From: Cephalotus follicularis
Lineage: Eukaryota; Streptophyta; Magnoliopsida; Oxalidales; Cephalotaceae
Direction of reading: 5' to 3'
DNA: 64,000 bases
Assembly (NCBI GenBank): GCA_001972305.1
Contig: BDDD01000062.1
Span: 992,901 to 1,056,900 of the forward strand
Shown: positions 16,876 through 63,141 of the stretch, in pieces
Layout: every line of letters begins with the position of its first letter
How positions within the stretch are numbered: the first letter of the stretch is position 1
Notes under the pieces: generated by a model
The model's database searches: none
What the model saw: the letters and a program-made list of their open reading frames with translations, nothing else
Told to the model about the DNA's origin: nothing
Translations under genes and position numbers: made by a program

Positions 16876-16878
16876 ATA

Positions 16879-18745: not shown

Positions 18746-18748
18746 TAA

Positions 18749-19279: not shown

Positions 19280-19849
19280 TAAGAGAGGATCGTTTTTACT
19301 TCTTTATGTTTCCACTTGGATCAGTTATACTTGGGAGAGACCCTTTGATTCCGATTACATCAACCATAAAAGAAGACGCAACTTCCAAATAGCCGAAACA
19401 ATTCATAATAGATTTATAACATCTGGCAAATTTTGTGGGTGGCCTAAAAAGCTAATAAATCTCTCATTAGATATTGAGACAGGAGGTGGAAACAAAAGCA
19501 AACAATATTTTTTTTCTTCCCCTGATTGGTGGACCAAACGATTAGAGACTGCCAAATATGTGCGGAGATTTTCCTTTCCATGAAAGATCTCCTTGTCTGT
19601 ACTGTTATCAGACAGTGATTTTTTTATAACTTCATTAGAAGTTAAAGGACAACAAAACAGAAAGAATGGTATACTTTTATTCTTTAAGTATAAATGTCAC
19701 AATGTCCTTGTCATCTAGAGACTAAAGAATGTACAAGTATCTACAGTGAAACCTTACATAGTGAAGAATTTAATTGAAAGAATAACAAATGACAATAGAA
19801 TGAATGAATCCTGCGTTTCAATAACTTAAACGGAAATCCTTTAGTTATT

Positions 19850-26558: not shown

Positions 26559-27044
26559 TGTTGATGCTGAAATCAACTCATCAACAGTACTTCACGTGTA
26601 GGACTTTGATTTGTAGAGGAAACGTTGCAGATGCTCCGAGAATGAATGTTTGATCGTCTTCCCTGCACACAAATAACAAACTGACCGAAGGACCAGGAGG
26701 TTTCACTCCTGGGGACTCTCCGTTGCTTAAGTCAGCCAGTGTACAAAGAAGGCAACGAAGGTTATTTAAGTGTATAAAAATGGTGGACCTGTGTAATGTG
26801 TTCGATTCTCATATTTATATGAACTCATTGTAACTGATTTGCTTGACTTGTGGAGATGATTATTGTACCCCTAAGGAAATGTCGAGTATCTCGCCATTTC
26901 CCTGATTTGGCGCTGGAGCGTTATTATGCGTTATCTTCCCAGATTATGAACGCACGACCACGTGTCTGTAGTTCTATATAACACTTATCTTGTTTTCCCG
27001 AAGACACGTGGCAGTATTTTTAGTGTAAGATTTTCCCCATATCA
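26559..27044 (-). repeat. LTR of the Tat-lineage element (3' in coding sense)
   Basis: Begins TGTTGATGCTGAAATC and ends CCCCATATCA. Close to the 38400-38885 LTR but with scattered substitutions. The start shares its first 20 or so bases, in diverged form, with the LTR of the 6385-11130 element and with the LTR at 51230-51710. Confidence 0.92.
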
Positions 27045-27554
27045 TATGCCTCCTTAGTCTTCTTTTTCTGGGCTTGGCAGAGGAAAAAGACCATCTATGG
27101 CCTGACTTGACTCTGAGCAGGACTATGATATGTTAACTGAGCCTGTTTTCGCTATTATGCCTCCAACACTCAGCCCACTTTCGTCATCAACTTTAAGAGG
27201 TCGCTTGCTGCACGTTATCTCTTCTTTTATAGCAACTGATTGGACGGGTTGATCTCAACCATTTAACCCCTCTGTGATCCAACGGTCTGAAAGCAATCCC
27301 TAGCCCTTTAAAAAAGGCACTACCTTCTTAGAGAAGTTTATTTACGCTTCCTTGAATCTTCAAAGCTCTTACCCTTTTTAGGTTTTCAAAATTCTCTAAT
27401 TCCCAAATTACTATTCGATCTTCTTTCAAGTCTTCATCATAAGAATCTCTGGTGAAACTCTTTTCTGGCCTTAATTTCCTTTAAGAAACTGTTCGGTCAT
27501 TCCTAGGGATTATTTTGGTTTTTTATCCTCTCTCTCTCTCTCTAGAGACTCCCA

Positions 27555-29903: not shown

Positions 29904-30489
29904 TTTTGTAACTTTGTTCTTTTCTTTTGCGTTGTAACTTGTACTTTTCCTTTCTGATCAATAAAATAAAAGGTTTTTCAAATTATTAAACTTCTTATCA
30001 TTTCTTTCATTGTGTACTGTTGTAGCTTCATTTGAGCATTATAATTCCCCTTAAGAATTTTATTTTAGTCTAACTTATAGACTTCTTGTATTGGGGTCTT
30101 ACATTTTTCAGACCGAATTACCTAAGCTTTCTAGCCCCCATAGGACACTTTGTATAAAAAGCGTTTAGGCAAAGGAACTTGGTCTTTACGAGTTCTTAAG
30201 TGTTCATAGATCAAGTTTTAGGTCTTCTCGAACAAGTTCTTACAGGTTTGCAGAGCAAGATCTCGTCTGGTCCGTTATTTTCCAGACCAGGTCATCTAAG
30301 CTTACAGTCATTGTAGGGACACTTGTTTCAAAGTGCTCAGTCCAACGAACTTGATCGTTGTGAGTTCTTATGGATTCACCTCTCAAGACATGATATTGGT
30401 TTGGTCGGACAAGTTCTCATGGAATCGCCGACCGGTGTTTGCCCCCTTAGGAGTCTTATTGCTTCCTTAGAAGTCTTTTATTGATAAAC

Positions 30490-30660
30490 TTTAGGCGCTC
30501 CTCGGAAGGAGTCTTTGGTACTTCTTGGAAGGAGTCTTTAGTGCTCCTCATAAGGAATCTTTGCGCTCCGCAGAAGAAGTCTTTGGTGCTCCTCGTAAGG
30601 AGTCTTTGTGATCCTGGCAAGGAGTCTTTGGTGCTCCTCGGAAGGAGTCTTTCTTGATTC
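30490..30660. repeat. About 25-bp minisatellite in the Tat element
   Basis: About seven units of the form GTGCTCCTCGGAAGGAGTCTTTG. It occupies the place equivalent to the 8211-8600 array in the smaller gypsy element, and the unit is clearly related. Confidence 0.75.
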
Positions 30661-31019
30661 GAGACCTCGGTCTGTTCGAGACTTTAGCCCGTATTTGTTT
30701 ACTTCCTTAGGAGTTTCGAGTCTTCATGAGACTTGGAGAGCTTTGGTCCTGTTTCAAGGCCTGCTCTGATTGCTCCCTTGGGAGTGTGGTCGGACAAGCT
30801 TGTATTAAAGCTTCTTGACTGAGGAGACTTATCGACGGCTATTCAGAGATTTAAGGACTTGAACATTGGACCTCCGGTCCCATGCAAACTTGGAACTATG
30901 ATATTGAACAAGCACTTTTTGGAGAAAAAATTCAACTTTATTGATATCCTTGAATATGTACAAACTTACAACAATCATTGGTAGTACTTTCTCAGATGCT
31001 CGATATTCCAAGCTCTAGG

Positions 31020-34000
31020 AATCTCAATGCCCCCTAGCGTTTCAAGTTTGAATGTTCCTGGTCAGAGCACTCTTTTCACCTTGTATGACCCTTTCCAATT
31101 AGGCGCTAATTGTCCTCTGGTACCGGTCGAATCAGCAATATCCGCATTGTGGAGGACTAGGTCTTCTTCCCTTAGTGGTTGGGGATTTACTCTTTTATTG
31201 TAGTAAAGACTCACCCTCAGTTGATATGCTGCTACTTTGATGACTACCTTATCTCTGAACTCTTCCTGTAAGAGCCCTAAATATTATAAAATATATTTAT
31301 TGGGCTTTGTAATTATTTTCTCACTTTTTGTGCTGGACCCGAATTTATTATGTATTTATTTGGGCCTTAATGGGATATAAATTATGATTACGGGCTTAAG
31401 AATTATTTTTATTTATTTTGGGCCGAAATTATAAAGCATAAGTAATTGGGCTTAAAAATCTAAGAAGAAAAGGCCAATTGAAGAAGACACAGCCCAAGCC
31501 CAAAAGTATAGCCTGCATTCTTCACGAAAATTCCAGACTCTTCTATTGATGTATATATATAAGGACAAAGGGTGGCCAAAAGAGGGGCTTTGGCATTTTT
31601 CTTTACATTCTCTAGAGAAATCGAGAGAATGGAGGAGTTATGGGAGATGGGTCCAGATGATGGAAGAAGGAGAAAGAAGACAATGGAGAAGGGTCCCTGC
31701 TTATATATATATATATTTGTTTGAGGGTGTGTGCCATCCCCTGAGAAGCAAGAGAATTGAGCAAGGGTGAAGAGGAGAAAAAGCTAAGTGTGTAGCAGTC
31801 CTCAACTGCAAGGAAGTGGGCGATCTCCGTTTCCAACCACCTCCAGGTAGGTTGCTCCTTATCCGAGTGCCTACCAGCATGTATGTATTTGTGATTGTTT
31901 TGTGTGTGTGTATGCATGCCTTCTCTACTCGTGTCATTGCGTGCTGTTATGCTTGTTTATAGGCAGATGACATATATACATATAAATGGCTAAATAATGG
32001 ATTACTTGGCATAATAACAGTATACCTATATATGTATATATATTGCAATATGGAGAGGAAGAGAAACAGAGCAGGCGCACGAAGGCGCCATCTATGCTAC
32101 ACGTTCAAGAAGGACACTGCCGAGGATGCCAAGTGCAAAGGATATCCCTGTCCTCTGCATGCGCTCCCACCACTGCCATAACCACCCACGCGTCCTGGTG
32201 TCAAGAACGCTGCCGAGGACGCCAAGTTGAGCTCTTCATTTTCCCCTGCATGTAATGGCACCGGGCTTTCACTGTGAAGACGCCAGAGGTGCCAAACGCA
32301 GAGGAAGCTTCCGTCCTTTGTCCTTTGCTCGCGTCTTCTCCACTGAGTGCCCGGGGACCATGCCAGACGAGCCATTTCTAGGAGATGCATGCGTTACCTT
32401 TCACTGCATGTGCCTCGCCCCACTGTGACGACCGAGATGAAACACCTGAGGAGCAATGGCTGTGGAGTAACGCCCGAGGTGCCAAGCTCCCCTGTCCGAG
32501 CTGAGGTGCCAAGCTCCCATGTCCGAGCTGAGGTGCCAAGCTCCCAGATTCGAGTAGAGTAGTCCGAGGATAAAGGCATGATGATGATTATGTTTGGGTT
32601 GTGATTACATATTTATTATTATTTTCTCCTCTGCTTGTATTTGTTTGTTCCTCTGGTATGTGCCCGTGTATGGAGTGACCTACACAACCCTCAGGGTTGC
32701 TGACCCATTCTTTTGAATGGGCCAGGTACAGGAACAGGTATTGGAGGCACATCGCAGCAACGGCAAGGATAAAGAGTACAGTAAGTTCTCCTCCTCGACA
32801 GTACGCTTCCATGGACGCAATTGCAGAAAATAAATTATGTATTTATTTTTATTCTGGTTCACAGTAGTATGTAATTTATATGATTCGAACTGGGTCTGTA
32901 ATCCACACATTAAATAAGGATTTTGATTTTAAATTTGATTATGATTTATATTAAGTTTAAATTTTTATGATGATTGTACGGATTGCCACGTGTCGAGTCG
33001 TGGGGCCCATCCCACGATTCGGGGCGTGACACTTCCACTAGGTCAAGAAGATTTCTCAATCATTTTTCATTATTTTCATCCCTAAAATGCACCACTCTTG
33101 GTGAATGCACTCCAATTTCCACCGGTATCATAGCTTCTGCTCCAAAACAAAGGCTGAATGGGGACTCACCAGTTGTGGTTTGATGAGTGGTTCTATATGC
33201 CCATAGTACACTTGTTAGCTCCTCTGTCCATCTTCTCTTACTGTCTTCGAGGCGCTTTTAACCCCAGATGATTTCCCTGTTAATCACCTCGGGTTGGCCA
33301 TTGCTTTGGGGGTAAGCTACTGAAGCAAACCCATGCTCAATTCTCCACTCTTTACAAAAATCACGGAACGCTTGACAATCAAACTGTTTCCTATTATCTG
33401 AGACTATTATTCTTGGGACTCCGGATCTACAGATGATTGATTTCCATACGAAGCTTTCTGTGTTCTTCTCTGTTATTGTAGCTAGGGGCTCGACTTCTAC
33501 CCATTTGGTGAAGTAGTCCACTGCTATAATGAGATACTTTCTCTGCTCTGTTGCTACTGGAAGTGGTCCGATGAAATCCATCTCTCATTGTGCGAAGGGC
33601 CAAGGGGCAGTGATAGATGCCAGAGTCTCTGATGGTCTTCTGCTTATATTAGCATTCCTCTGACACTTATCACACTTTCTTACAAAGTTGATGGCATCTT
33701 GATGCATGGTGGGCCAAAAATAGCCCTACCTCCACAATTTTTTGGACAAGGTTCTGCCCCCCGTGTGATTACCGCATACTCCTTCATGAACTTCCCTCAG
33801 AGCATAATCGGCCTCTGAAGGGGTCAAACATCTCAGTCAAGGAAAAGAAAAAGACCTTTTGTAGAGGATCCCTTCTCAGAATTGGTATCTGTTTGATCTG
33901 TACACCAATCTTCTTGCCTCTTCTGGTAAAATTCCATCCCTTATCCAACTGATAAATGGAGTCATCCAGATTGGCTCATGTGGTACATTTATGTCCATCA

Positions 34001-35770
34001 CATCCATCTCTGAAATGGTGGGCTTATCCAGATAGTCCACTAGCACGGTTTGATTTTTCTCTAATTCCTCTACCGTGGCTAGTTTAGACAACTGGTCTGC
34101 TCGGGCGTTTTCTACTCTAGGCACTTTCAAAACTCTGAACACTTGGAAAGCCGACTTCAAACTCTGAACGTGTGCTAAGTATTTAGCCATAGAATCTTCT
34201 CTGGCTTCATACTCCCCGCTCACCAGACCAACTACCAGCTGAGAATCACTAGAGGCTTCTATTTTTTGAACCTCTAAGTGTTTTGCAATTGTCAGTCTAG
34301 CGATTAGAGCTTCTCACTCGGCTTCATTGTTTGTGGCCTTGAACTCGAATCTCAGAGCATACTCTAAGGTCCACCCATCTGGACTAGTTAACACCAATCC
34401 TGCTCCACTGCCGGTGATGCATGATGAGCCATCGATAATTTTCATAACCCCTTCCCATCTTCAGATGTGTCTTCTTTCATACACTCCGTAAGTGTATGGT
34501 CTCCTACAAAGTCAGCCAAGACCTGTGATTTTATTGCTGGTCTGGTTTCGTGTTTTACGTCATACTCGCGCAATTCGACCGACCACTTGATCAATCTGCC
34601 CGAGATGTCTGGCTTTGCTAGCACTTGTCTTAGTGGCTTGTCGATCAAGACTTTAATAATATGGGCTTGAAAGTATGGCCTTAACTTCCTCGCAGCTATA
34701 ATCAAAGCATAAGCGTATTTCTCTACATCTGGATATCTCCTCTCAGCGTCATTCAAGACCTTGCTGACATAGTATACTGGCCTCTGAACTTTTTCCTCTT
34801 CCCTGACAAGCACTGCACTCACCACGTCTGCTGTTGCCACAAGGTACAAATACAAGTCTTTCCCATCCTTCAGCTTTGATATTAGAGGAGGGGAAGCCAG
34901 CTATTCCTTCAACTTGTCGAAGGCTGCTTGACATTCTTCTAACCAAGAAAACCCCTTGGGGTCCTTCAACACTTTGAAGAAAGGAAGACACTTCTCTGCT
35001 GATTTTGAAACGAACCTACTTAAGGCTGCTATTTGCCATTCAATTTCTGTATATCCCTGATAGTCTGAGGAGGCCTCATGCTCTGAATCGCTGCAATTTT
35101 CTCTGTGTTGGCCTCTATTCCTCTGCTCGAAAGCATAAACCCGAGGAACTTACCAGAAGTGACCCCCAAAGTATTGAGCTTCATTTTATATCTTCTCAGT
35201 ACCTCAAAATTTTCCTCCAAGTCTTTAATGTGGGGACTCCTCGCTGGCATCTTGACGAGCAAATCATCAATGTACACCTCCATATTTCTCCCGATCTGAG
35301 GCTCAAAAATTTTGTTGACCAACCATCGGTAGGTCGCCCCTACATTCTTCAGTCCGAAGGGCATGACTTTGTAACAATACATGCCCTTGTCGGTGATGAA
35401 TGATGTCTTGTTCTCATCGGGGCCATACATAGGTATTTGATTATAATCTGAGTATGCATCCAAGAAGCTTAGCATCTTGTATCATGAGGTTGCATCCACC
35501 AACTGATCGATCTTCGGGAGGGGGAAGTGATCTTTTGGGCAAGCTTTGTTTAAGTCTGTAAAGTCTATGCACATCCTTCACTTGCCATTTGCCTTCCTGA
35601 CCAGGACCGGGTTCGCCAGCCAGTCAGAGTAATGCACTTCCCTAATAAACCCCGCTTGTAATAGCTTGCTCACCTCTTCTGCTATTACTTGTTGCCTCTT
35701 GGGAGTGAAGTTCCTTTTCTTTTGCTTGGTTGGAGGCCTCATAGGATCCATACTCAGCTTATGCACCACT
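31020..35770 (-). pseudogene. Tat-lineage pol: RT, two RNase H domains, integrase
   Basis: Reading down the minus strand: RT from SKLLQAGFIREVHYSDWLAN through FLDAYSDYNQIPM, MPFGLKNVGATY and VYIDDLLVK (catalytic DD intact). Next is a gypsy RNase H (LYLVATADVVSAVLVRE, RPVYYVSKVLNDAERRY). A second, RVT_3-type RNase H follows (SGEYEAREDSMAKYLAHV, PRVENARADQLSKLA). Integrase has MDFIGPLPVA, VDYFTKWVE, VSDNRKQF (NR-K in place of the usual NGTQF) and QSNGQPEVIN. The integrase tail is cut by the solo LTR and resumes at 31261-31020. Stops and frameshifts (around 35800, 35000, 34440 and elsewhere) prevent expression as one polyprotein. Confidence 0.88.
31267..33031 (+). repeat. Solo LTR nested in the Tat element integrase
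   Basis: 1765 bp from TGTAAGAGCCC to GGGGCGTGACA, flanked on both sides by CTTCC (31262-31266 and 33032-33036). Integrase-tail coding stops at one side and resumes at the other. A TATA-like TATATATATAAGG occurs at 31550. A 27-bp unit containing GAGGTGCCAAGCTCCC is repeated about 2.9 times at 32476-32553. No internal retroelement sequence remains, as expected after recombination between two LTRs. Confidence 0.88.
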
Positions 35771-35799
35771 ACCTCTGGCTGATCCTAGGGACCTCCTCT

Positions 35800-38345
35800 G
35801 CCGATCAAGAAAACACATCTTTGTTGCTTTTGAGGAACGTTATTAGTTCCTCTTTCTCCACCTCTCTAAGTTATAAGCCGACTTGGAATACTTTCTCTGT
35901 GTTGCCCTCTACCAAGGGAACCTACACAATATCTTCAACAGGCTGTGGACACTCAGACTCCACTTATCCTCTAAGCTCCATATTGGCTATGGACAAGGCC
36001 TTCTCTTTTCCCTTGTCTATTATGGTAGTCTTGTAACACTGCCTTGCTGCCTGTTGGTCTCCTCGAACTTCCCCTACACCAAACCTGGTCAGGAATTTCA
36101 TCAATAAGTGTCCCATTGACACTATCGCTTCCATCAAATTCAGACCTAGCCGCTCAATTATAGCATTGTATGGGCTTGGTGTGTCAACCACCATGAATGT
36201 CATTTGAACTTGAGTCTGGCGCGGGGTTGTGCCTACTACCACTGACAGGTTGGTGGATCCCAGAGGATGGACCATCTCTCCTGCGAAGCCTATTAGAGGT
36301 GTCTTCACGGGCTTCAACTGGTCGGCCGGTATCCTCAACTGATCAAAGGCATGCTTGTACAGGATATCGGCCGAGCTCCCTCTGTCAATCAGGATCCTCT
36401 TCATTGTGAATAGCACCACTTGAAGAGTCACCACAATAGGATCATCATGAGGGAGACGTACTCCCTTATAGTCTGCCTCAGAGAAAGATATCACCTCCTC
36501 ATCTCCCCTAGTCTTCAACCTTTTGGTATGCTGGTATTGTTGCACAGCAAAGGTTTACCTTGCATAGGCCTTTCTAGACCTATTATGGTCGCCCCCAGAT
36601 GCGACCCCTCCAGAGATAGTATGGATCACTCCTCTGGGCTGCTGCTCCTCTTGCTGCTACAGAGCTTCCTCTCTGCGCTCCCTCTTTTCTTAGGGAGCGT
36701 TCCTTTCAACATACTTGCGTAGATGTCCTCTCTGAATCAGGTCCTCAATCTGATTTTTTAGATGCCTACACTCTTCTTTGTCGTGCCCGTGGTCACGATG
36801 GTACCTGCAATATTTATCTGGGTCCCTCTTCTCTAGCGCGAATCTCAATGGTGCTGGTCATTGAATTGAGACTTTGTCTTTCTCTACAACAAGTATCCTG
36901 GTGCGTGTCTCCAGGAGAGGGGCGAAGTTGTTGTAGGTCAGGATTGGTGTCCCTCCCTTTGGTGACTCCTCTCTTCTGGAGAGCTTGTGTCCAAGGTCGT
37001 CCTTGGATAGCTCTGACCTCTCCTTCCTCTTCTCTTTCTTCCCAGGAGCACTTCATGAGTGCTCCCCTTTCTCCGCCTGATGACCTGACCAGGAAGTTTT
37101 TTGTTTCCTAACGGCCATCGCCTCCTCGGCATTGACATACTTTTCCGCACTCCTCAGCAGGTCTTCCATGTCCTAAGCAGACTTCTTCATTAGTGAGAAA
37201 ATGAATGATGAGTTGTCCTTCAATCCACTGTTCAGAGCTGCTATAGCAAATGACGGCTCCAGGTCTTTCACTGTCAGAGACTCCTTATTAAACCTGGTAA
37301 GGTTGTCTCTCAGGGACTCATCCTTCCCCTGCACCACATTGATCAGATGACTCGAATTCCTCCTCTGCGTGGTGCTATTGAGGAACTTGATAACGAACAG
37401 TTCCGTAAACTGCTCGAAATTCACCACCGAATCCACTTGTAGGGTGGAATACCATGACTGGGCTGCTCTAGTCAATGTAGCCAGGAATCCTCGGCAAAGG
37501 ATCGCGTCTGAGGCCTAGTGCACTGACATGATCTGTGTATAGTAGCGCACATGCTGGATTGGGTCCGTGGATCCATCGTACTCCTTGAGACTCGGGAACC
37601 GAAATCCCCTAGGGATACGCTCCTTCATTATCTCGGATGTGAAAGGAGTGGCGTTGATATTTCGTACCTCAGACAGGTACCCCTTTGACTGCTCGGCTCC
37701 TCGGAGCCTCCTCTCCATCTCGGCTAGCCTCATGTTCATGGCTTGCTCGGCATCCTCAATATTCCTACTCTTGCTAAAAACTTGTGACTGCCCGGCCAGT
37801 GTGGCCGAATGGTCCGACCTACTCCAGCGCAATGTTTCAGTTCTGCAAGAAGCGTTAGAGCGTGCTCGGGTCTCCTCGGCATCAGCTGGGCGATCCACTT
37901 CCATTGGTTCCTACTCGGGATGCTCTGACCGATGATTGTTGTTGTGATCCCTGGCAGTTGAGGACTCTGCCCTCAGAGATGTATTAATCTCTGGTCTCAT
38001 CCTCAGGGGATTATCAACCCCTGACCGCCTTAGGGGGCACATGCCCCTCCTCGGCGGGTTTCGCTTTGCCCCTTGGGGCTGTTGAATCTCCTGGGCTGCT
38101 CTACTAGGACCAGATTGTTCTCGAATGATTTGTCGGGCAGATTCGACCTGATTTTGGTTGGCGAGGTTGGTTGCCAACAGGTTGGTAAGATGCTCCATTC
38201 CCTGAAGCAGCTGATTGAATTGCTCCCCAGTAATGGGAGCTTGCTCGGTGGCGGCGGTAATTTGGCCGGCAATAGGTGGTTGATTTCCAGTAGGGGTCTG
38301 GCTGTCATCGACCACAGAGTTGTTGTTGTTTCTTCTCGGAGGCAT
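35800..38345 (-). pseudogene. Tat-lineage gag and protease, one frame with many stops
   Basis: ATG at 38345, just inside the 5' LTR (MPPRRNNNN). Gag features: TGEQFNQLLQGMEHLTNLL, the retrotransposon-gag core with AAQSWYSTL and FEQFTELFVIKFL, and a knuckle-like CRYHRDHGHDKEEC (CX3HX4HX4C). Protease follows with LIDRGSSADILY, where Arg replaces the usual Gly/Asn of the D(G/N)GS(S) active site. Eight stops between 37913 and 36557 all fall in the same frame, with no frameshift over 1.36 kb. The first frameshift is near 35800. Confidence 0.85.
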
Positions 38346-38399
38346 GGTTAAGTCTTGGTTTGAAAGCTTTTTGAAGCGTTTCCCACAGACAGCGTAAAC

Positions 38400-38885
38400 T
38401 GTTGATGCTGAAATCAACTCCTCAACTGTATCCCACGTGTAAGACTTTGATTTGTAGAGGAAACGCTGCAGATGCTCCGAGAATGAATGTTTGATAGTCT
38501 TCCCTGTACACAAATAACAAACTGACCGAAGGACAAGGAGGTTTCACTCCCGGGGACTCTCCGATGCTTAAGTCAGGCAGTGTACAAAGAAGGCAATGAA
38601 GGTTCTTTATGTGTATAAAAATGGCGGACTTGTGTAATGTGTTCGATTCTCGTATTTATATGAACTCGTTGTAACTGCTTTGCTTGACTTGCGGAGATGA
38701 TTATTGTACCCCTAAGAAAATGACGAGTATCTCGCCATTTCCCTGATTTGGCGCTGACATGTTATTATGCGTTATCTTATCAGATTATGAACGTCTGATC
38801 ACGTGTCTGTAGCTCTGGATGACACTTATCTTGTTTTCTCGAGAACACGTAGCGGTATTTTTAGAGTAAGATTTTTCCCATATCA
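38400..38885 (-). repeat. LTR of the Tat-lineage element (5' in coding sense)
   Basis: Partner of 26559-27044. Just inside it the minus strand reads GTTTACGCTGTCTGTGGGAA, closely resembling the same place in the smaller gypsy element, so it is the likely primer binding site. The tRNA is not assigned. Confidence 0.92.
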
Positions 38886-47758: not shown

Positions 47759-47989
47759 CTGGAAACTTATGAAGAGAGAGAGAAAGAATATGAGAAGCTA
47801 AGAAAAAACCAAGAGACGCCCTGATCAGTTTACACAGCAAATAATAAAGAGCGACTCGCCTAAGAATTTGAAGAGAAGTTTTGAAGAAAAGTTGTTTGAA
47901 GATCTGGAAAATCGAAAAGCTTCATAGAAAAAAGAGCCTTGAAAATTGAAGAAGATTAGAGTAAGGAAACTCACTACAAAAAACAAGCC

Positions 47990-48440
47990 TTTTGAAACGG
48001 ATGGAATCCGTTTCAAAAGGCCTATTTTTTCGTTTCAAAAGGTCAATTGAAACGGTTTTGAAACGGAAAAATGGAATTTCAAAAAAGTGGCGTATCAATA
48101 GCCTTTTGAAACGGACAAACCGTTTCAAAATGGTACCTTTTGAAACGGTTAGATCATCCGTTTCAAAAGGATACCCTTTTGAAACGAATAGAAGCAACCG
48201 TTTCAAAAGGGTACCCTTTTGAAACGGAGGACCCAAACCGTTTCAAAAGGGAACCCTTTTGAAATGGTAGGCCCGTTTCAAAAGGTTTAGAAAAAAATAA
48301 AAAAAATAAGACCCTTTTGAAACGGTTGACATTAACCGTTTCAAAAGGGTACCCTTTTGAAACGGTTAGTCCGTTTCAAAAGGTTTTTAAAAAAAAATAC
48401 CCTTTTGAAACGGTTAACACAAACCGTTTCAAAAGGGTTT
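47990..48440. repeat. Palindromic subterminal array (CCGTTTCAAAAGG)
   Basis: About 20 half-sites alternate as TTTTGAAACGG and CCGTTTCAAAAGG with spacers of 4 to 20 bp, so neighbouring sites form hairpins. A smaller set is at 50785-50895 near the other end. By analogy with En/Spm these are likely transposase binding sites. Confidence 0.85.
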
Positions 48441-48869
48441 TAAAAAAATAAAAAAAAATCATTTAAATCTTTTATAATCTGATTTTTTTATTAAAAAATA
48501 ATAAAAATATATTATTATACAATATTATAGACAACAAATTATTTTGCCTAAATGTATAAACGAATAATCATGGTAAACAGACATTATAATTGGGAAACAT
48601 ACATTGTATCGAACCAAAGCACACATTGCATCGACTGAGCTACAATCGTTATATCTCGAATTAAATACAATTTCTATATATTATTGTACAATATTATAGC
48701 CAACAAACTATTTTGCTTGAATGTAAATAAACATCGTGAGCATAAAAGTATCAAAAATCAAAATACGATACAATTAATTTATCAACTACTTAAATCTTGG
48801 CAACTAACTTTTAACAGTGAAAAAGCTGACTATAGAACTCTGCAGCAAGAGCAATTTGATGAAAAGAAA

Positions 48870-49003
48870 CCAACCTTATCCATACGAGCTAGATCAGAGA
48901 TAATTATCAGAACATCCAGCACAACCTCCCTTGGACTAGAAGAATCAAGCAACATTCAGGATATGGCTGCTAAATCCCATAGTACACTTCTACAATGAGT
49001 AAT
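48870..49003 (-). pseudogene. Captured exon fragment, FUSED/TIO-like ARM-repeat segment
   Basis: The minus strand reads LWDLAAIS, a stop, then MLLDSSSPREVVLDVLIIIS and DLARMDK, ending at a GT splice-donor-like site. From memory this matches the ARM-repeat tail of the plant FUSED-type kinase TIO. It is one exon with a stop, with no start and no kinase part. Assignment is tentative because it rests on one short exon. Confidence 0.45.
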
Positions 49004-49489
49004 TGGTAAGATCATGGCTCACAATACCTTAGTAGAGAGCTGTAGTTGGTTGTTGACCAATAGAAAGCATGGGGAAAAGGAGAATGCACAAACAAAAAGG
49101 GATGCAAGCAAGGAAGCAAGCCTAGTCAAGCTGCACCCAATCAACAAACAAAGGTAAATACAATTTTATCTGACATATGGATGTCATGTTAGAGGATCAT
49201 AAATCTCAGCAAGATCAACAAAACATAAGGGGAAATTTTGTTTTTTTGGAAGCAACATCATCCATTAAGGTAACCTGAATAGAATCTTTTAACAAAATAA
49301 ATGCACCAAACAGAATAACAGACTTGTATGTCCCTTCAGTAAACCATCAATGTCCTCAAAGGAGTAAACCATCAATGTCCTCAAAGGCTAAAGGAAGAGA
49401 AGATGGAAATGAAATAACAAACATATTTCCTAGCTGAAGAGAAAATTTAACTGCAAATGAACCACACAAGACTGAACTGCAACAAAAGC

Positions 49490-50460
49490 TTGTTTGAAAA
49501 TTTCAAATGGGAAGGCCTCAATAGGTATATCATAAGGGTATTGCTGCAAAATGGAAAAAAAATGTTGAAAATGATGTTGGGTGACGATCACAATCACTAA
49601 TTACTAAAGTAATATACCGCTATGATAGATTTTCCCAAATCCCGAACCCCCCACCAAGGATCGAATCCTAGTCTTCCCAATAGTAATGCAATGCATTTGT
49701 CATTAGGGTGTTCCCTTGGAGACTACTAAAGTAATATAGCCTAGACAAAAACTGGAGGAAAAGTTTTTAACATTAATAAAAGCAAGAATATGACCTGGAA
49801 GAGAGACCCAGCCATAAACCAGACAGTGTCAAGCTCATTATACTCTCGTTTGATTCCTTCAGCCCTTTCAAGAACTTCAGCCTGGTTCATAAAATTTAGA
49901 AATAAATTTTTTGAACCACTATTTATTAGTTAACTTTATAATTGTGAGGAAAGCGCGTAAATAAATAAATGTATCAGAATTCATCTCCAATTGAAAAAAA
50001 AATACCTTAGTGGGGCTACCAGTGAGAGAATCCGGTTCAGCTTCTGACCATAGAAGTGGAGATTCCACAGCCATCTGGCCTCTCCCCCTTTGGCGATCCA
50101 GCTCTCTAATATATGGATACCAGAACGACTTCTTTCCTTGTTTCTTCTCATACATTAGATACAATGCCAAGCATGCCAGTTCCAATAATTTGTTTGTGGT
50201 CAATAGTTTAGCTGTACAAACCACCAAGCCCAAACATATTATATAGCTTAAACACATACTTTTTTTTTCTTCTTTTCATTCATCACACCCAATTAGCCAA
50301 AATCCAAAATTGAAACAAAACAATGAAAATTAGGACCAAAATGTAGCAAAAACTGAGCTAAAGAAAGCACCTTTTCAAGGGCTTCAACTTCAACGACAGT
50401 TTTGGTATCAAGCCCATTTAGGTTATCCTTCACAACCTCTTGCGGGGTATTAAATCAAGG
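49490..50460 (-). pseudogene. Captured exons of a plastid SET-domain protein (pTAC14-like)
   Basis: Minus-strand exon-like blocks in order: PQEVVKDNLNGLDTKTVVEV and EALEK (about 50450-50373); ELACLALYLMYEKKQGKKSF through RELDRQRGRGQMAVESPLLW to GSPTK (about 50195-50008); AEVLERAEGIKREYNELDTV and WFMAGSLFQ (about 49883-49797); and QYPYDIPIEAFPFEIFKQAF then VAVQSCVVHLQ (about 49546-49455). GT/AG intron borders are retained between them. I recall this series from pTAC14/Rubisco-methyltransferase-type SET proteins of chloroplasts. The SET core and both gene ends are absent, so it is a captured middle part, not a gene. Confidence 0.65.
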
Positions 50461-51229
50461 CTAGCTCGTCTTCTCTCTTTGAACGGATGACGGTGATGGC
50501 GACGTTGGCGGAATTGCCACAACTAGCCACTGTCCCCCTTTCTCGCGCGCCTTTCTCTCTTCGTCGATTTCCCTTTTCCTTTTCTTTCTCTGCCGAACTC
50601 TCACTCTTTCTTATCTTCTTGCTCCCGCTGCCTCTCTCTTTCCTCCGCCTCTCTCACTGTCTCCTCTTCAGCGACGTGTTTCTCCCTCTCTTGTTTCACT
50701 TCTTCATTTTCTTTCTTCAGAAAAAATGAGAGTTAGGTCGAATGATTATATATTTGGGCATTAGCTATTTAAAACAGTAAATATCTACCGTTTCAAAAGG
50801 GTATACCCTTTTGAAACGGACAAAGCGACCGTTTCAAATGATACCTTTTTGAAACGGCCGCGTGATCCGTTTCAAAAGGTTGCGTTTCAAAAAGGCTGTT
50901 TTTTTGTAGTGACTTCTCCAAGAAGGAGAAGCGTTTTAAAGGGCTTTAGTTTGATTCCAGACCATGAGATCTATGCGGGATCAAACGACCTAGATCAGCC
51001 CATCAATCAGGTGCGAGAAACTAAAAGACCATGCGCAACAATGAAAATACGTGGACGGGAGACATGCTCGTCTTGCCACGCATCAATTAAAGTTAGAGCT
51101 GGGCTAAAAAGCAAAGCCCATAAGCCAAAACATACCTAATTACTTATTAAAGGTCTGCTCAAAACAAGAACACCTAACTAATGCTTTTCCCCCTCTACAA
51201 AGAGTAGAAAAAGTAGATCGTGGGGCATA

Positions 51230-53240: not shown

Positions 53241-56200
53241 ATGTACAACGGAATAGGATTGCAAACCCCTCGAGGGTCGGGGACGAACGGGTACATACAG
53301 ACAAACAAGTTCTTCGTGAGGCCAAGGAGCAACAACAACAACAACAGCGACAACAAAGGGTTCGAGGCAGGTGAAGGGATGGCAGGAGTCACTAAGAAAC
53401 CCAACAAGGACATCCTCGAACACGACCGTAAGCGTCAGATTCAACTCAAGCTCGTCATCCTCGAAGACAAGTTGTCCGAACAAGGTTTCACCGATGCTGA
53501 GATCGCCGATCGCTTGGACGAGGCCAGGAAGACTCTCGAGGCCGCCGCCGCTTCTGAGGAGACTGGTGGTCCCTTGGCCGTTATTGTTTCCGAAAACAAG
53601 TAATCCATCTCTATCTCAACCTTTACTCAAGTATTACTTTATTTGGGTGTAAATTAGAAATTATATATGTGACACTAGATGAGGGAGATACAAAGTCGTT
53701 TACTTTTATGTAGGCATAGTGATTAATGATATTACTGAGATCCACACCTTTAGTACCTGTAAGGAGCCATCGATTATGTACTGAATGACAATAAAAAAGT
53801 TTGTAGTTTAGATTCTGATGAGTTTATCTCAGGCTTCTCACATAAGAGGCATTTTGGAGGGTTAACTTTTGTGATTTTGTCATTTATAGCCCATTTCTGT
53901 ATCATTGAAAGATTAAGCCCATCGTTTGGTGTAAGCTTGTCGATTTTTAATTTCAGGTCTGACTTGCAGACTATTGCAAACATTGTTTTTAATCCTGAAA
54001 ATTAAGGTTGCAATAACCAGGAGCTAGTTAATTAGGCACACATATATTTATTTCTCGGCTGAATCTCTTTCAAATAGGGTTCATACCCCACCCAAATTGC
54101 CTTTACTTACAATGAAACTGATGTTGCCTCGGTAGAAAGCCTTGATCTTTTGAATATTTTCCTTCTAAAGAGTTACTAGAATACTGAACACAGAAGGTAT
54201 TGCCTTTTTAATATCTTGTAACAAATGCTAATAGTGTTAACATTGTAACAGTAACATATACAGCCTGCTTTTGGAGGCCGGATCATATTCTTTGCTAGTT
54301 AATTCAATGGTGTTTTGTCGGGCCATGCACACAATTTTTCCCCTTTGAAGCTTGCTTAACATAGTTTAAATTTCTTCTGTGAAACTTTAGGAAAAATTAG
54401 CATAGAAAATATGGACCTTAGAATAGCATGAAGAACTTATATATGTAACATTAGACAATTGTGATACATCATGTTAATACTTTGAATTGTAATTTGTTCT
54501 TGTGGTTGCGTCTACATTCTGTCGTGTGATTTTAATCACTTTCCAAACTTTGAAAGCTTAGAAATTTTTGTTATTGTGTTATTAATTTGATGCACTAGAC
54601 AGCTACATTGATGTTCAAACTTTGGAAGCTAAGATTTTTTTTATTGTTTGTGTTATTGTATTGATAATTTGATGCACTGGACAGCTATATTGATGATGAT
54701 GGTCTATGATGGAAGGATTCTACTGATGTTTGTTTTTGGTGGTTTCTCAGGTTTTCAGATACACAGACCCACCAAATCGCCGCTAGGAAGGAGAGACAAA
54801 TGGAAAAATTTAGAGATGCTCTTGGTCTTGATTTTTCTGAGAAGAAGGAACAAGGTGGTGAAGGGAGTGATGAGGAACCAAGAAATAGAAGAAAGAATAG
54901 CCTAAATGATGCCATACCTGAGCACACTTTTCTGGATAGAGACTTTGGGTGGAAGAAACATCTGGAAACTGAAAGGGGTGACAAGAACAAGGCTGCTAAA
55001 GATGCTAAAAGTAAGAAGGAAAGCAATGAAAACAGAAGGCATGGGGATGACTCTTCTGATACTTATAGCAGTGGCAAACATGGTAAGAGGATTCTAAAGA
55101 AGCACCGTAAAAGTAGCCGTGAGAGTGATCGTGATGGGAACGCTGGCAAGAAGAAGAAAACTTTTAAAAAGTACAAGAAAAGGATAAGGATTGATAGTGA
55201 GGATTCTGATGGCTCGACGGATGATGATGCTGACGTTGGCAAGAAGACGGAAAATTTAAAGAAGCACAAGAAAAGTAGAAGACATGACAGTGAGGATTCT
55301 GATTCTGCCACTGATGATGATACTGTTGGCAAGGTCACTTCCAGAAGGCAAGTTCAAAAATTTGGAAAATCTAGTCGGAGGCATGACTCAGATGAGGATT
55401 CCGGATCTGGTGAAGGCTTAGACAATGGCAGAACTCAGGAAGGGAAAGAGCCAATGATAACTCGGAAAAGGGTCGACTCTGATAGTGACTCTGATACCCG
55501 GATGGCAAAAAAAGGAAGTCATTATGAGAAGCGGAGAACTCAGCAAAGTGAAAGCCGTAGGATAGAGAGCGATGATTCTGATGCAGAGCAGCGGAAGAGG
55601 AAAGATGATAGATTTTGGGAAATCAACAAAGGCCATAATGTGGACAGTGAATATGATCTGGGCAAAGTGAGAAAGCATAAAAAGGAGTCAACGAACAGGA
55701 GTCGTAGAAGGAATTCTTCTGATAGTGATAATTCTGACTCTAGCAGTGATGAGGAGATGGAGATGCATCAAAGAAGTAAGAGGCCTGATACCAATGTCAA
55801 TGGCAAAACAACAATGGGAAGGCCAAAATCAGTTGAAAGGAAGCCTGTTTCAGGCAGTGACATTAGTAATAGCGACGATGATTCAGGCAGCAGTGCCAGT
55901 GATGAAACACATGAAAGAACTGGGAAAATTAACATAGAGAAAAGAAGTGGGCATGGAGTTGATTTGAATAGCAGAGGTGCACGTATTGGCCATGGATCTA
56001 GGCTAGAAGAAGGAGAGTTCAGGTCTAGTGTTGTTGAATATGATGGTAGAAAGAGAAGTATTACAGATAAATCTACCCATGGAAGTCAAGATACGATGAG
56101 GGGTAAGAGGAAACTCGATGATGAAAACAGGGAGCAGCAGCCAGAGTCAAAGTCAAGAACTAGGGTTATAGGGAAAGAGACCGAGTATAACAGAGATCAT

Positions 56201-56620
56201 CAGGTTGATAGATCAGACTTGAATAAAGATGGTCAGAGGAGGGATGACACCTGTGGTTTAGATATATCTAGAGGGTATGATGATGAGAAATTAGCCCGTG
56301 AAGGCAGAATTTATCGCAAGAATTTGGAGTCACAACGTGAAAGTAGGAGGAATGATCGGGATTATGAAGATCACCGAGGGGGCAAGAGGAGCTATAGAGA
56401 TGAGGAGGATCGTAGGGGGAGAAAGCATGAAAGAGATGAAGAAGATCGAAAATATAGAAGGCATGGAAGAGGGGTGGAAGAAGAGAGAGGAAGTAAAAGT
56501 TATGAGAGGGACACAACGTTTGATCATTCTAAGAGACCTAGATATGATGATTATCGGTCTAGTGAGAGAAGGTATGCAAGTGATAAACATGCTGATGATA
56601 AGGTCAGACTTCAAGACTGA
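53241..56620 (+). CDS. CWC21/SRRM2-type pre-mRNA splicing factor (cwf21 domain)
   Basis: Two exons, 53241-53599 and 54751-56620, joined at AA|G in phase (GT/AG intron of 1151 bp), giving 742 aa. The N-terminus MYNGIGLQTPRGSGTNGYIQ is the hallmark of the Cwc21/SRRM2 family, followed by a cwf21 domain (residues about 57-100; HDRKRQIQLKLVILEDKLSE). Residues 120-742 are a long disordered, highly charged tail rich in KKH, SDSD and RD/RE stretches with RS-like dipeptides. In yeast and humans the N-terminal region contacts Prp8 and Snu114 in the activated spliceosome, so a nuclear splicing role is expected. A further splice near the end (GATAAG|GTCAGAC at about 56600) is possible. It is the intact member of the segmental pair; copy A at 16879 is truncated. 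Confidence 0.9.
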
Positions 56621-58492
56621 CTTTGCTGGTACTTTTGGAACCACTGGATTGCTGGTAAGTTCTTCAGATCTGTTTAAATTTATATTCTGGTATTTACATA
56701 TCTGAAAGTTGGTGTAATTTGACTATGTTAATATTTCTAGCCTTGGGTACATGTTTATATTATCGTACTTAGAAAATATAAGAGCTCAACTAAAGTATGC
56801 CGTTCCTACTGTAGAGGGTCCAAATCTGTAGTCTAGTAGAGTTAAAATTCAGCTGCATTAGATAACACTTGACATCGAGGAAGTACTATAACACTTGACA
56901 TCGAGGAAGGACTCTTAAAGGGGTAGGAAATATCAAAACAATTTTCTTTTGTGCTAAATATGGAGCCTTAGGCTTTTAAATCATTGTATCCCAGCATCTC
57001 ATATGCGATATCTACCTGAGTATTTTAATTATTGTTATAGTGCTTACTTATCATTGATTCCTATGATGTTGGATATTGCGGTTTCTTCTTCTTGATTGAG
57101 TTTAAATGGGGTTTCTTTCAGTGCTCGTTACATCAAATGGGGAATTGCCAACTGAAAGCTGAACTTTCAAGCAGGGCCTAGGAAGGCTGAGGATGCAAAC
57201 TATATTGCTTGATGTGTTGTGTGTTTTCGCTTTTGTATGATTAAGACATTAATATTTACCTCCATGAGCCGTATTTGTTCCTCCCCTTAGAATGTGTTCT
57301 TTTATTGTGTATTACATTTTGAAATATTGAATATCCTTTTGGTAAAGCCTAGTTTCGTGATCTTTAGAGATGTGCCGTTGCCACTTACAGGCCAACAGAG
57401 TTAGTGAGCCAAATGGGTGCATTGTTAATTAGGCTGTTGCAAGCTTGTACTGCTTTATCGAATTTATTAGTCTCGATTGCAAGGATGGACTCTTCCATTG
57501 CAGAATATGACGCAGAGTATCAGCACATACTGATTCCTCATTTATTTACTCATCCTGAATTCTAGCATTGATGATGCTTGCGAAGGAAAGCATGTGTTTA
57601 ATCTGGACAGTGAAGGGTTATATATGCAATCTACAAGCCATTTTTTTGACAAACTTCACTAGCTTAGTGGTTCTGCAAAAAATTTTAACGATGGATACTT
57701 GGGATGGAGATAATGTAGCAGGATTCCTTTTAACATACACCCCCATTCTGGGACCTTCAGCTTACATGCTTTTTATGTTGTCTTCAAACCCAAGGCTCTC
57801 CCTGAAATACAGAATGTAGTATCTTGGCTTCTATTCTAATTCACTATTTAAAAATCTGGCCATCATATTGTTGTCACCAATTGGGGTTCCTCTTAGACAA
57901 GTTCTTTTTTACTTCTTTATGTTTCCACTTGGATCAGTTATACTTGGGAGACACCCTTTGATTCCGATTACACCAACCATAAAAGAAGACGCAACTTCCA
58001 AATAGCCGAAACAATTTATAATAGATTCATAGCATCTGACAAATTTTGTGGGTGGCCTTAAAAAGCTAATAAATCTCTCATTCGATATTGAGACAGGAGG
58101 TGGAAACAAAAGCAAACAATATTTTTTTTCTTCCCTTGATTGGTGGAACAAACCATTAGAGACTGTCAAAGATCTCCTTGTCTATACTGTTTTTTTTTTT
58201 GAACGAAATTGTCTATACTGTTTAATAGTATATCTTTTTGTAATGTTGTTATCAGACAGTGATTTTTTTATAACTTCATTAGAAGTTAAAGGACAACAAA
58301 ACAGAAAGAATGTTACTTCTATTCTTTTAAGTATAAATGTCACAATGTCCTTATCATCTAGAGACTAAAGAATGTACAAATATCTACAGTGAAACCTTAC
58401 ATAGTGATGAATTTAATTGAAAGAATAACAAATGACAATAGAATGAATGAATCCTGCGTTTCAATAAATTAAACTGAAATTCTTTAGTTACT
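56621..58492. other. Downstream of the splicing gene, non-coding
   Basis: Contains the probable 3' UTR and intergenic sequence. From 57070 it matches copy A (17905-18745 and 19290-19849). A 9-fold T run with an inserted ACGAAATTG block at about 58190 is specific to copy B. No frame is conserved between the copies, and I see no gene. Confidence 0.55.
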
Positions 58493-59371
58493 TTACTTGT
58501 TTCCATCAGCATCCACATTGATTATGGTAGAGGCTCTCTTGAAGTGGGTTGGCACAGGCCTAAGCCAACCTCGGCCCCGATCATGTCCTTAGTCAAGAAG
58601 GGTGAAACTTCGTCACTTGATAGGCTGCGTGACCATCTAACCCTTTTAGCTCTATTTGCTCCGGGACCATAATTCTTGTATTCACCATAATATACAGTAC
58701 TGTTTTGCCAAACACACAACATGTTAAACATGTCAAAATATATAAGTGGCACATGGAAATATTGGGTTTTAAAAAAAATGAAGATACTACATATATATGA
58801 TGATACCTTTGCTGGCTTTGGTCTCCCCAGTCATCCCATCCCTGTGGCAAAATAGCACTAGGCATGTAAGTTAAAGCAAAGACCACCCTAGAGTAAGTAC
58901 CCCATGCCTCCCAAGGAGGGCAGTTCCAAGACCAGTAATCTTGCAACCCAAGAAAGTGTAGCCAGTATCTTCAGATGGTGACTCCCTTTGTTGAGCAGTG
59001 ATTGCTCCACTGCTCTCAGAAACTGAATATGGCACCTCTGCATTACCATAATATATAGTGGTATTAATGGTACTCTTTTATTTGTGTGCCTAAACAAATT
59101 CAAATTGAAACAACTCGCATGCCACTATATACATATTGTTCTATCTTTAAAATGTAATCTAATTAACACTCACTTCGTATAGAGAGGCAGCATTCCCGCA
59201 TATAAAATCAGGGCTCCTTCAATGTAGCAGTTGCTGTAATAATGTCTCCCTAAATCATCTAGGAGAGTATCTTGATAAGAAGAAATGCTACAACCGTAGA
59301 ATGCACCTCTATCTCCCGACACCCCTAGTGCCACAGCTTTTCCAGTTGACTCGAAGGTATTCTACAAGAAA

Positions 59372-61026
59372 TTGATAAGAAGAAAGGACCAGGTTTGCAG
59401 TATCGGTATGAGTCACGAGTGCTTCGGTCCCATTGTTCTTTCGTAGCATTGACCTCTGTTAGTAGACTCTTATTATTGGTTACATGACATGTAGCTCCAG
59501 TGTCTAACAACCACTCTGAAGAAGCGTTGGCCCTGCAATCCGTCATCATTGCGATAAAGTTGCGAGGTTCAGGCTTGCCCACCAACATGTGAGCTTCCTT
59601 ATGTGTTGTGTCAGCATTAAGCACACCAATATTCTCATTGTTCATCTTAGACCTCAAGTTCTCGAGATCAGTAACTTGATGAGTGATTTCCATGTCTTCA
59701 CAGAACTTAAAATCTAAGAACTTATCCACTATGTGAGATTTGGATAGTTCCTCATCTTTTCGGAATTGAACGTCTAAATTGTCCCACATTTCCCTAGCAG
59801 TCTTAAACTTACTATAGATTTCTGCAAGACGGTCTGATAAACAATTCAATAAGTAGTCTCTACAGTAGTCCTCATCACTTAACCATTGAGATTCAGAAAC
59901 ATCTTCAGTGGTGCCAGAAAAAGTACTCAAAACAGTATAGAATATTTGATTGGATTTCAACCCGAATTGAGTCTTACGTCTCCAAGCGTTGTACTCCGAC
60001 CCACCAAATGATTGTAATTTAGCCATCTCAAAAAGAATATATTTATCCATTTCAGTAAATAAATAGATTAAATAATAAGTAGAACGAGTGCACCTGAATT
60101 TTCAGCATAAACAGCAACCAAACGGAGCCTCGAAGTCTGAAAAAACAGTAAAAATCAGCCTCACTCTCACTGTGCGCGTGTGCACCACACGCGCTAGCAA
60201 CTGCCAGTCTCTCCCACGCATGCGTGCGCCACATGCCCGTCTTCTCCTTCCTTCGCTCGACGCAGCAGGCGGAAAAGAAGAAGATGGTGATTCCAGCGAT
60301 GATAGACGACGCCGACCTCGCAAACGGACTGGCGGACCTCCAAGAGTCGACAACTGGACTCCTATGCCTGAAACGACGTCACCAGTGGCTGGAAAAACCG
60401 ATTCAAATCGCGGCGGCTACACAACCAAGCTCCTTCGTCCGGCAACGGTTCAACGCCGCACCACCTGCCAAAGAACCACCATGGAAAGACGAGTTCAACG
60501 CGACCGCTTTGAGCCTCTGACGTCAACTCCAGTGGCTAGAATAGGAGTTCAAAAGTTGCGGATCGCTAAAGCCTCAGGACGCTGTTCTGGATGATTCCGA
60601 CACCGGATCAAAAATCCAACACCACCGACAGATTCCTCTGGTCGAGGTGCACCAGACGGTGGCCGGAACAAAAAATTACTTTTTTGACCGTTTTACTCCT
60701 GACGTGAATAATGACAAAACTGCCTCTGTCATGGAACAACCAAATTGCACGCGAAATGAGACATCCATCAAATTAAGATAAAAACACAAAATAATGCTTT
60801 AAGATTGTTAAGGTTTTAGACTGTATTGACAAATAAGTATGTATGGCTTAAAACATTACACATTCAAGTTTGGAATACTCTGCAGTGTTGCCTCCAGCTA
60901 ACACACTTATATTTATACTAGGGTCTTACCTTATTATGGGCTCTAGTCCACATAACCCCAAATCTTAGGCCTTCACTTATTGAGTTTATATTAAAACATA
61001 TTAGTTAGATAGTTAAGTATCTAACA
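59372..61026 (-). mobile_element. Truncated copia retroelement in pectinesterase B intron
   Basis: The minus strand starts TGTTAGATACTTAACTATC at 61026, an LTR-like start. Gag begins MDKYILFEMAKLQSFGGSEY (about 60050) and includes SKFKTAREMWDNLDVQF. It passes directly to protease sequence with EWLLDTGATCHVT (about 59520), so the middle of gag including the zinc knuckle is deleted. Coding ends against pectinesterase intron sequence at about 59372. The 60100-60650 stretch is a GC-rich leader. No second LTR and no target duplication were found. Confidence 0.7.
59480..60050 (-). pseudogene. Copia gag-protease remnant
   Basis: Carries SDEDYCRDYLLNCLSDRLAE, HIVDKFLDFKFCEDM and QVTDLENLRSKMNNE of copia gag, then the protease active-site region WLLDTGATCHVTNN. 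The frame stays open by chance into pectinesterase exon 3, which should not be read as a fusion protein. Confidence 0.75.
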
Positions 61027-61609
61027 GATAATACCTTAATTGTGAGAAATCGTCCAACAAAATCAGATGCCAATATGGAGACTGTTGGAGATTCATAGAT
61101 ATCCCCATTGTCATTCCATGTAATTACGATGTTAGAGGCATGCCTGCCACTCAATGTGATGAAGGGCTTATCAGCAGGCACGACAATCTTTTCTCTGCTT
61201 AATTAAGCACAAAAATAACTTAAAATTAGAACATATATAAGAATCCCTCAATCCAATCAATTTGTCAAATAACCAAGGTGTCAACCCATAACTCGTTTTT
61301 TTTTTTCTTTAACAAATTACATCACATTCATTTGCACCATGCATGCGCCTAGGAATAGTTTAAAACTGCATGCCAGCTAGTCCACGCACACACAAACCAG
61401 TATGTTACTGACTCAACCCAAATGAAAACAAGCTCAGAGTTATTAGATGGAACAGCATCAATAGCATCTTGTATCTTTCCATAATCTCCTTCGCCAGACT
61501 GATCAACCTTTATGAGAATGGCAATAGACGTATTCACAGCATCGGTAGCCATGATAAAACCATATACAATTTGAAACAAAATGATAAGTAAATAGCCATA
61601 AATCTTCAT

Positions 61610-62902
61610 TGGTGAAGGGCACAATAAAAAATTTAATTAAACAAATGGTTTAGTGAAGGAATGAAACAAAGTTATACTATATATTAATTTATATACTGAC
61701 TACCAATATGTTGTTATGACCACGTTCAATTTGTCGGTGGCTCGTGGCCGATTTCTTAAAGCTGAAGTTTAAATGTTGATCTATCTTAAAGTGGATATAA
61801 ATACATTTACCTGAGAGGAAGAGGGAAAGAAAATTATTATACTATTAATTGCCAGCAAATCGTGCTTAATAATAATCTGTTTTAGGTAAATGTACTCTAC
61901 GTGTTATATGGCGGCGTTATGTACTATGTGATTTATGCTTTGAATTGTACATGACTTTGCACGTACGTAGTAGTAATCTCACAACAGCACAGCCACCACC
62001 CAAAATCTCAAGTTACTTAAAATGAGGAGGCAAGGCAACTATTAGTTTCTAGTTAAAGACGTTATTTGAAACTTTACATGCACGCATGCAACTATCTTAT
62101 TCAAGTATCAAACAGCTGGAAGTCAAAAATGTACATGGATTTATTTGGATGGATAACTTAAATCATTCATTTCTTATATAATTTAGTGGAAGAGATGTAT
62201 GCTACTATATAAAAGGATAACCAAATAAATCTTTTTTTGAGCTGAAGATTGGAGAACCCAAATCTACAATATAGTTCAAATTCTAAGATAAGATGTTATT
62301 TGAGCACTGAACCAACTCAATATGCCAGAAACAGGTGAAACAATAGCAGCTTGGAATACTGGTTTGTTAATTTATTGCATAAGCAACTAAGTAGATATGC
62401 TTTAAGATTAAGATTAAGATTAAGAGGGGATATATTAATAGTTTAGACAAAGAATTGAGGATCTATTTTAACAATTAATCAATACCCTTTGGTCAAAACT
62501 ATTGCTTAGAGAACCTCGATAAGTCAAACAATCACAAATGATATTTTGATAATTCTATTATAATGCGTTTATGACACGTCATTTGTAATTAATAATATTA
62601 CTCTTAGATAATACACCTACTTTTTTCCTTAAATCTATTCAATTAATTAATTATCAATTACAGCAAGTAAGATTATCCTTGTTCCAGTGTGACCGAGTTT
62701 GCCTATGTTAGGAATCCCAGGAATAAATCCCAATACTTTGTACTAACTTCATTTTGAGTACTTTTCTATTTCATGATTATAGTATTGTTGTGAGTTGTAT
62801 TAATAAATGAGAAATAAGACAATGATGGAATCCTAATTGTATTAGTTGCATAATATGATAAGATTTTGTTGTAATTGCTTGTTTTAATTTGTGACTAATG
62901 TG
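61610..62902. promoter_or_regulatory. Upstream region of pectinesterase B
   Basis: Matches 25438-26558 plus 38886-39053 of copy A, with the Tat gypsy insertion site left empty near 62735. The AGATTA hexamer repeat is at about 62401-62425. A duplicated GTACTCTACGTGTTATATGG block of copy A (25725 and 25785) is single here. No gene. Confidence 0.6.
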
Positions 62903-63141
62903 TAGGGTTACGCAAACGAACCACAAAAATATAACAAAATCAGTGTATTCAGTTCGGTTTGGTACCATAAAAGAGCAGTTTGATTTTGGATTACATAAAT
63001 ATTAAACCAAATGTATTGGTTCGGTTTATAGGATTAAAAAACCCACAAAAATCAAATCGAACCGCATTTATAATATATATTATTTTAATAATTTTATATA
63101 TCTAATTAATAATTATCTATCCAATATTTTTATATCACATC
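62903..63141. mobile_element. hAT-like MITE, copy B, interrupted
   Basis: Starts TAGGGTTACGCAAACG and matches the left half of the MITE at 39054-39563, including the preceding CTAATGTG. It is cut at 63141 by the LTR that follows. Confidence 0.85.

Follow-up and report, generated by a model that had tools for sequence, protein, structure and literature searches.

A 2,940-bp segment of the 64-kb window (the whole stretch of DNA analysed, C62:992901-1056900) is, with a probability of about 97%, a non-autonomous, gene-capturing CACTA (Pack-CACTA) element. The element occupies positions 47972-50911 on the plus strand and is defined by its ends, its target-site duplication (TSD), its family copies and a six-frame Pfam scan. 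The termini are CACTACAA-type CACTA ends with terminal inverted repeats that begin with CACTA. The left repeat (47972-47993, plus strand; inverted pair I22) starts with CACTACAAAAAA, and the right repeat (50890-50911, minus strand), which was located by an inverted-repeat search, finishes with TTTTTTTGTAGTG; the pair is 88% complementary over 26 nt when the flanking bases are counted in. The trinucleotide ACT immediately flanks the element on both sides, at 47969-47971 and 50912-50914, as a TSD. Furthermore, the 13-bp subterminal motif CCGTTTCAAAAGG and its complement are found in 18 exact copies (10 plus and 8 minus) from 47988 to 50880, including a left array of direct and inverted motifs at 47988-48436 and right motifs of the same kind at 50788-50880, and the rest of the 64-kb window contains 0 copies. 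A Pfam scan of all six frames of the element, with stops written as X and a threshold of E≤0.1, detected no family and hence no transposase domain. The longest stop-to-stop frame in the element encodes 124 aa and extends beyond the element. The first-pass annotation, which described CACTA ends and an ACT duplication without a transposase, is thus borne out in position and by the empty six-frame scan, and the exon-like blocks that it placed inside the element are found there among the open reading frames of the window.

The element is multi-copy and moved after capture. In the searched genome (1,577,397,061 bases, or 1.58 Gb, in 9,746 contigs), the left 529 bp as a query yielded many matches; 40 of 1609 candidates were scored, their 40 main rows were 81-100% identical, and the best match away from the window among these 40 of 1609 candidates was 94% identical. 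The interior as a query gave 53 matches in the 40 of 427 candidates that were scored, and the match counts from both queries mean at least that many family members. Because the left 529 bp and the interior match many other places, the element does not reflect chance. A total of 17 loci were examined, of which two are donor loci (C339 and C9626) and 15 contain relatives of the element. Both ends were located in eight of the 15 relatives and were not located in C3151, C7664, C3165, C1227, C1176, C3432 and C49. Among the nine elements with both ends, window included, six display a perfect 3-bp TSD (ACT in the window, AAA in C1745, CCA in C2947, TGT in C1573, ATC in C227 and TAG in C1407) and range from 1.0 to 4.6 kb in length. 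One more of the nine, C1296, has the TSD TGA if its last base is taken as substituted, and the remaining two, C114 and C2233, have no TSD.

The DNA around the element contains repeats of its own. Two blocks of the window, at 16857-20745 and 54710-59376, resemble each other at 90-95%, with order and direction preserved, at a distance of ~38 kb. The second block has a charged 636-aa open frame, and the first contains a pectinesterase piece (PF01095) at 20085-20492; the corresponding frame in the second block gave no Pfam match. By their likeness, the two blocks are likely to be a segmental duplication located on either side of the CACTA element. In addition, the region 26559-38885 is bounded by 486-bp direct repeats (26559-27044 and 38400-38885; 90.7%) with a PF17917 reverse-transcriptase RNase H frame between them, and it interrupts a sequence of which a second copy, at 61024-63141, is continuous; by these features, it is a nested LTR retrotransposon.

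Where did the captured DNA come from? The largest piece (48955-50287, minus strand) corresponds to a gene at C339:691708-693011. The window piece aligns with C339 as a single piece, introns included, with 1249 of 1334 columns identical (93.6%), and 25 of the 31 gap positions in this alignment belong to a tandem duplication at 49338-49387. C9626 matches the piece equally well (93.6%), and its identity to C339 is 97.9% across 4.3 kb. Neither CACTACAA nor TTGTAGTG was found as an exact match in the 7 kb examined at C339 or in the 7 kb examined at C9626. The C339 gene has further exons on both sides of the captured piece, so the search for a parental gene elsewhere in the genome that the first-pass annotation had called for found one. 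Read from its open frames, the exon order at C339 is exon 1 (Met start), exon 2 (VGDVAFSVPNSLVVTLERVLGNETI), B, C and D, followed by KVSLARRFALVPLGPP. By eye, exon 1 has the look of a transit peptide, and the sequence downstream of the traced exons is retrotransposon-like.

The donor-1 protein weakly resembles SETD3-type SET enzymes, as judged from its translated exons. When the joined donor exons were compared with PDB at E≤10, ten of the 12 listed sequences were named setd3 or actin-histidine methyltransferase, with a best E of 0.22, which is weak. The window SET exons alone gave one and two unrelated PDB rows and no SETD3-type match, and no Pfam match was obtained for exon 1 or the joined donor exons of C339. 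pTAC14, a plastid SET protein, was considered as donor 1; its name is absent from the PDB matches of the window exons and of the joined donor exons, in a PDB set that may not include pTAC14.

Three SET exons lie in the captured piece, all on the minus strand. Exon B (50006-50211) and exon C (49795-49881) keep both splice borders, and exon D (49451-49543) keeps its acceptor, with the parental donor GT changed to TT. At the exon D donor position, the two donor copies read GT, seven of the eight element copies covering exon D read TT and the eighth reads CT, and a GT one base upstream of the lost donor persists in the seven TT copies. The intron between C and D contains a SINE-like insert (49602-49738) of 107 bp between 15-bp direct repeats (TACTAAAGTAATATA), and the same insert with its repeats is found in the donor gene intron. 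The insert is therefore older than the capture, and since introns and insert were copied along, the capture was made from DNA, not from mRNA. The exact 25-bp tandem duplication at 49338-49387 is single in the C339 donor, and the window copy is 25-38 nt longer than the five others in which the SET piece is covered in full; judging from these lengths, the duplication is probably private to the window copy.

Relative to C339, 12 of 387 exon bases and 42 of 916 intron bases are changed in the window copy, and the exon changes comprise six at 84 synonymous sites and six at 300 nonsynonymous sites. This pattern could mean some constraint on the window SET exons, and constraint on the donor lineage can give the same pattern; with counts this small, weak constraint may be present. 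The window SET exons contain no stop codon. Across ten copies, two of which cover the exons partly, a stop is found in the SET exons of four (C1296, C2947, C3151a and C3151b).

The right part of the element is a family module (50284-50911, plus strand), which 13 other places match from exactly 50284 without an adjoining SET match. This module contains an open stretch, exon A (EVVKDNLNGLDTKTVVEVEALEK|gt; 50371-50437, minus strand, left limit approximate), which we evaluated as a fourth SET exon and rejected. The exon A peptide is absent from 19 kb around the SET gene, where the right module gives only four short, chance-like matches, and the donor order runs from exon 1 through exon 2 to exon B, with an exon 2 phase that, by reading, fits exon B. 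Exon A occurs at 32 places in the genome, 30 of which overlap interior matches and two of which (C304 and C3554) do not, and neither Pfam nor PDB gave a lead to its identity. The first-pass annotation had counted four SET blocks with splice borders kept: three exons stand, with five of six borders intact in the window copy and the exon D donor lost, and the fourth block belongs to the right module instead.

A second captured piece (48782-48957, minus strand) adjoins the SET piece and matches C3098 at 169 of 176 bases (96%). At C3098, an open exon of at least 64 aa (ELKDLRRPVAFLAKLIGHRALAVQLVGKGLLEPNRVRMLLDSSSPREVVLDVLMIISDLARMDK|gt) within the 501 bases examined extends past the joint, and the element has only the last part of this exon (48875-48957, minus strand; ...SSPREVVLDVLIIISDLARMDK|gt), cut where the SET piece begins. 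On these 501 bases, C3098 is the probable second donor. The donor-2 peptide was found at nine places, one of which, C1:776393, likewise shows a longer open frame and is situated 1.3 kb away from a match to the right module. The 64 aa of the C3098 exon matched nothing in Pfam or PDB; the name FUSED/TIO, that of a kinase and ARM-repeat protein, is therefore a putative one for donor 2. The proposal that intron-containing pieces of two host genes were taken up thus holds firmly for the C339 gene and probably for C3098, where the longer exon is located.

The arrangement of these pieces is shared by other family members. The left family module (47972-48783, plus strand) is common to C1745, C114, C1296, C1176 and C2233 (in C2233 from base 37). 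SET exon B occurs, complete or starting at residue 5, at 12 places, two of which are the donor loci, and the SET piece diverges by 1.1-2.5% among element copies when C3151a is left aside and by 4.1-5.2% for C3151a. The joint between donor 2 and the SET piece is crossed in one alignment by six relatives (C1745, C114, C1296, C2947, C3151 and C3432). Because these six relatives cross the joint and all eight copies covering exon D are without its donor, we conclude that the pieces were captured once and then spread.

Longer relatives reveal what the window copy is without. C1745 (4,606 bp, TSD AAA) consists of the left module, two DUF7477 exons (Pfam E of 1.1e-26 and 6.4e-25), a longer donor-2 piece, the SET piece and the right module. 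DUF7477 is a domain found in MUT9-like casein kinases of plants. By coordinates, this stretch of C1745 is whole in C1296 and mostly present in C3151, and C114 is without the DUF7477 part. In C2233, whose ends are changed and which has a long N run and no TSD, two DUF3537 pieces (Pfam E of 5.6e-64 and 5.1e-25) each lie beside a repeated family stretch within a 13-kb span. Because C2233 could represent two insertions combined, capture of DUF3537 is only possible. A scan of C1745 and of part of C2233 found no transposase. In C114 (L030, 2765-3493), a 243-aa open frame gave weak, mostly coiled-coil Pfam rows; presumably it is gag-like, with a zinc-knuckle-like stretch.

What sets the window copy apart from C1745 is a joint with ATC in common, and at this joint the left end of the donor-2 piece meets the family module. 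A further 0.75-kb stretch, which lies beside the DUF3537 piece and not on it, is present in C2233 and C3151 and missing from C1745, and the C1745 joint at this point shares AAACA in comparison with C2233 and only CA in comparison with C3151. From this comparison of sequences, the most fitting view of the window element is that it has been shortened and belongs to a family that acquired pieces of at least three host genes (SET, donor 2 and DUF7477) together with exon A.

How was such an element built? We consider it reasonably likely that the family arose through template-switching capture, trans-mobilised spread and later short-homology deletions. An earlier member would have acquired stretches of several host genes by the copying of donor DNA into a break within itself, and the template would have been switched at short matches during copying. 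The captured product, larger than the window copy, would then have been moved by a CACTA transposase presumably supplied in trans and multiplied. Copies including that of the window may later have lost internal parts by short-homology deletion, as two joints suggest; that these two joints reflect deletion rather than addition elsewhere is itself something that we infer.

The direct joint between donor 2 and the SET piece bears on the capture step. The two pieces share 3 bp (TTC) at the joint, with no CACTA sequence between them. Compared with 20,000 random joints between the two loci, sharing of at least 3 bp has P=0.066; the further joints gave P=0.071 (ATC) and P=0.0097 (AAACA), so that P exceeds 0.05 singly at two of the three joints. 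In the accessible part of a study of animal Pack-TIRs, short homology at one or both breakpoints is reported in 190 (67.6%), and gap filling with template switching is favoured (PMC8277862). The other route would be entry of the host pieces by fusion of neighbouring CACTA insertions, followed by deletions that removed the element sequence between them. According to the portions available, fusion was proposed for Arabidopsis Pack-CACTA and is supported in maize and rice (PMC8903248; PMC13317346), and doubled arrangements do exist in the present family: within 7 kb of C3151 there are two stretches that carry SET, and in C2233 a family stretch is repeated, each copy being accompanied by a DUF3537 piece. 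However, donor 2 and the SET piece match different contigs (C3098 and C339) with no CACTA sequence between them, and because the pieces meet in this manner, fusion requires an extra deletion. A later deletion could hide a fusion at this joint. That pieces matching different contigs are joined directly speaks for template-switching repair rather than for fusion, by ~2 or 3 to 1 and not decisively, and overall we regard fusion as an unlikely route that still carries some weight.

A bolder form of the template-switching account would be that the CACTA family strings together pieces of at least three unrelated host genes in one direction with no element DNA between them, yielding trains of exons open to transcription from the module at the right end; we consider this improbable. 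The host pieces recognised in the window element and in loci L029 and L037 (C2233) do read towards the left end, for three of three sure pieces (SET, donor 2 and DUF7477) and two of two unsure ones (DUF3537 and exon A). The shared direction would also suit a function of the captured exons as a chimeric gene or as a source of regulatory RNA acting on the donor genes, which is compatible with the other readings, as would the five intact SET splice borders of the window copy and, in the text available, the splicing of Tgm-Express1 exons into transcripts (PMC1947982). However, a single direction arises by chance with P=0.06 for five of five pieces and P=0.25 for the three sure ones, the exon D donor is lost, stops interrupt four of the ten copies, exons A and B are by reading out of frame with each other, and the longest frame, 124 aa, runs past the element. 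Such a function is thus more doubtful still. Lastly, the idea that resident host exons simply lie between unrelated chance ends, with no capture, has virtually nothing left to commend it: relatives stand at other sites with other flanks and TSDs and the matching C339 gene lies elsewhere in the genome, so that the order of events in which the genes were there first and the ends are unrelated, which the first-pass annotation had kept in view, is excluded.

The family is instructive because the donor gene, the capture joint, the spread and the later shortening of a gene-capturing CACTA family are all readable in one genome, and because the direct joint of two unrelated donors bears on the choice between repair with template switching and fusion of neighbouring insertions. 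Gene-carrying and multi-donor CACTA elements are already known in plants, and the window element is a good new example. Tgm-Express1 of soybean is, in the text available, a CACTA element with five unrelated host gene fragments that include exons and introns (PMC1947982), and the window element likewise is a CACTA element with several unrelated host gene fragments containing both. As Tgm-Express1 and maize Pack-CACTA elements show multi-donor capture, two donors in one element are not new. Tgm-Express1 resides in intron 2 of F3H and has its exons spliced into transcripts (PMC1947982, as far as the text was available), whereas the window element is known from DNA alone, as a multi-copy family whose donor gene has been located. 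The Arabidopsis and maize Pack-CACTA elements resemble the window element in their CACTA-type ends (CACTACAA for Arabidopsis), non-autonomy and coding DNA, which in maize often derives from more than one locus; the window element differs in its two directly joined donor pieces, a joint of a kind not described in the consulted portion of that source (PMC8903248). CACTA-like elements of Chenopodium also carry host gene fragments, but, in the excerpts available, these are located upstream, either of a TAD domain or of the element coding sequence (PMC8978399), in contrast to the window element, in which no such domain was found.
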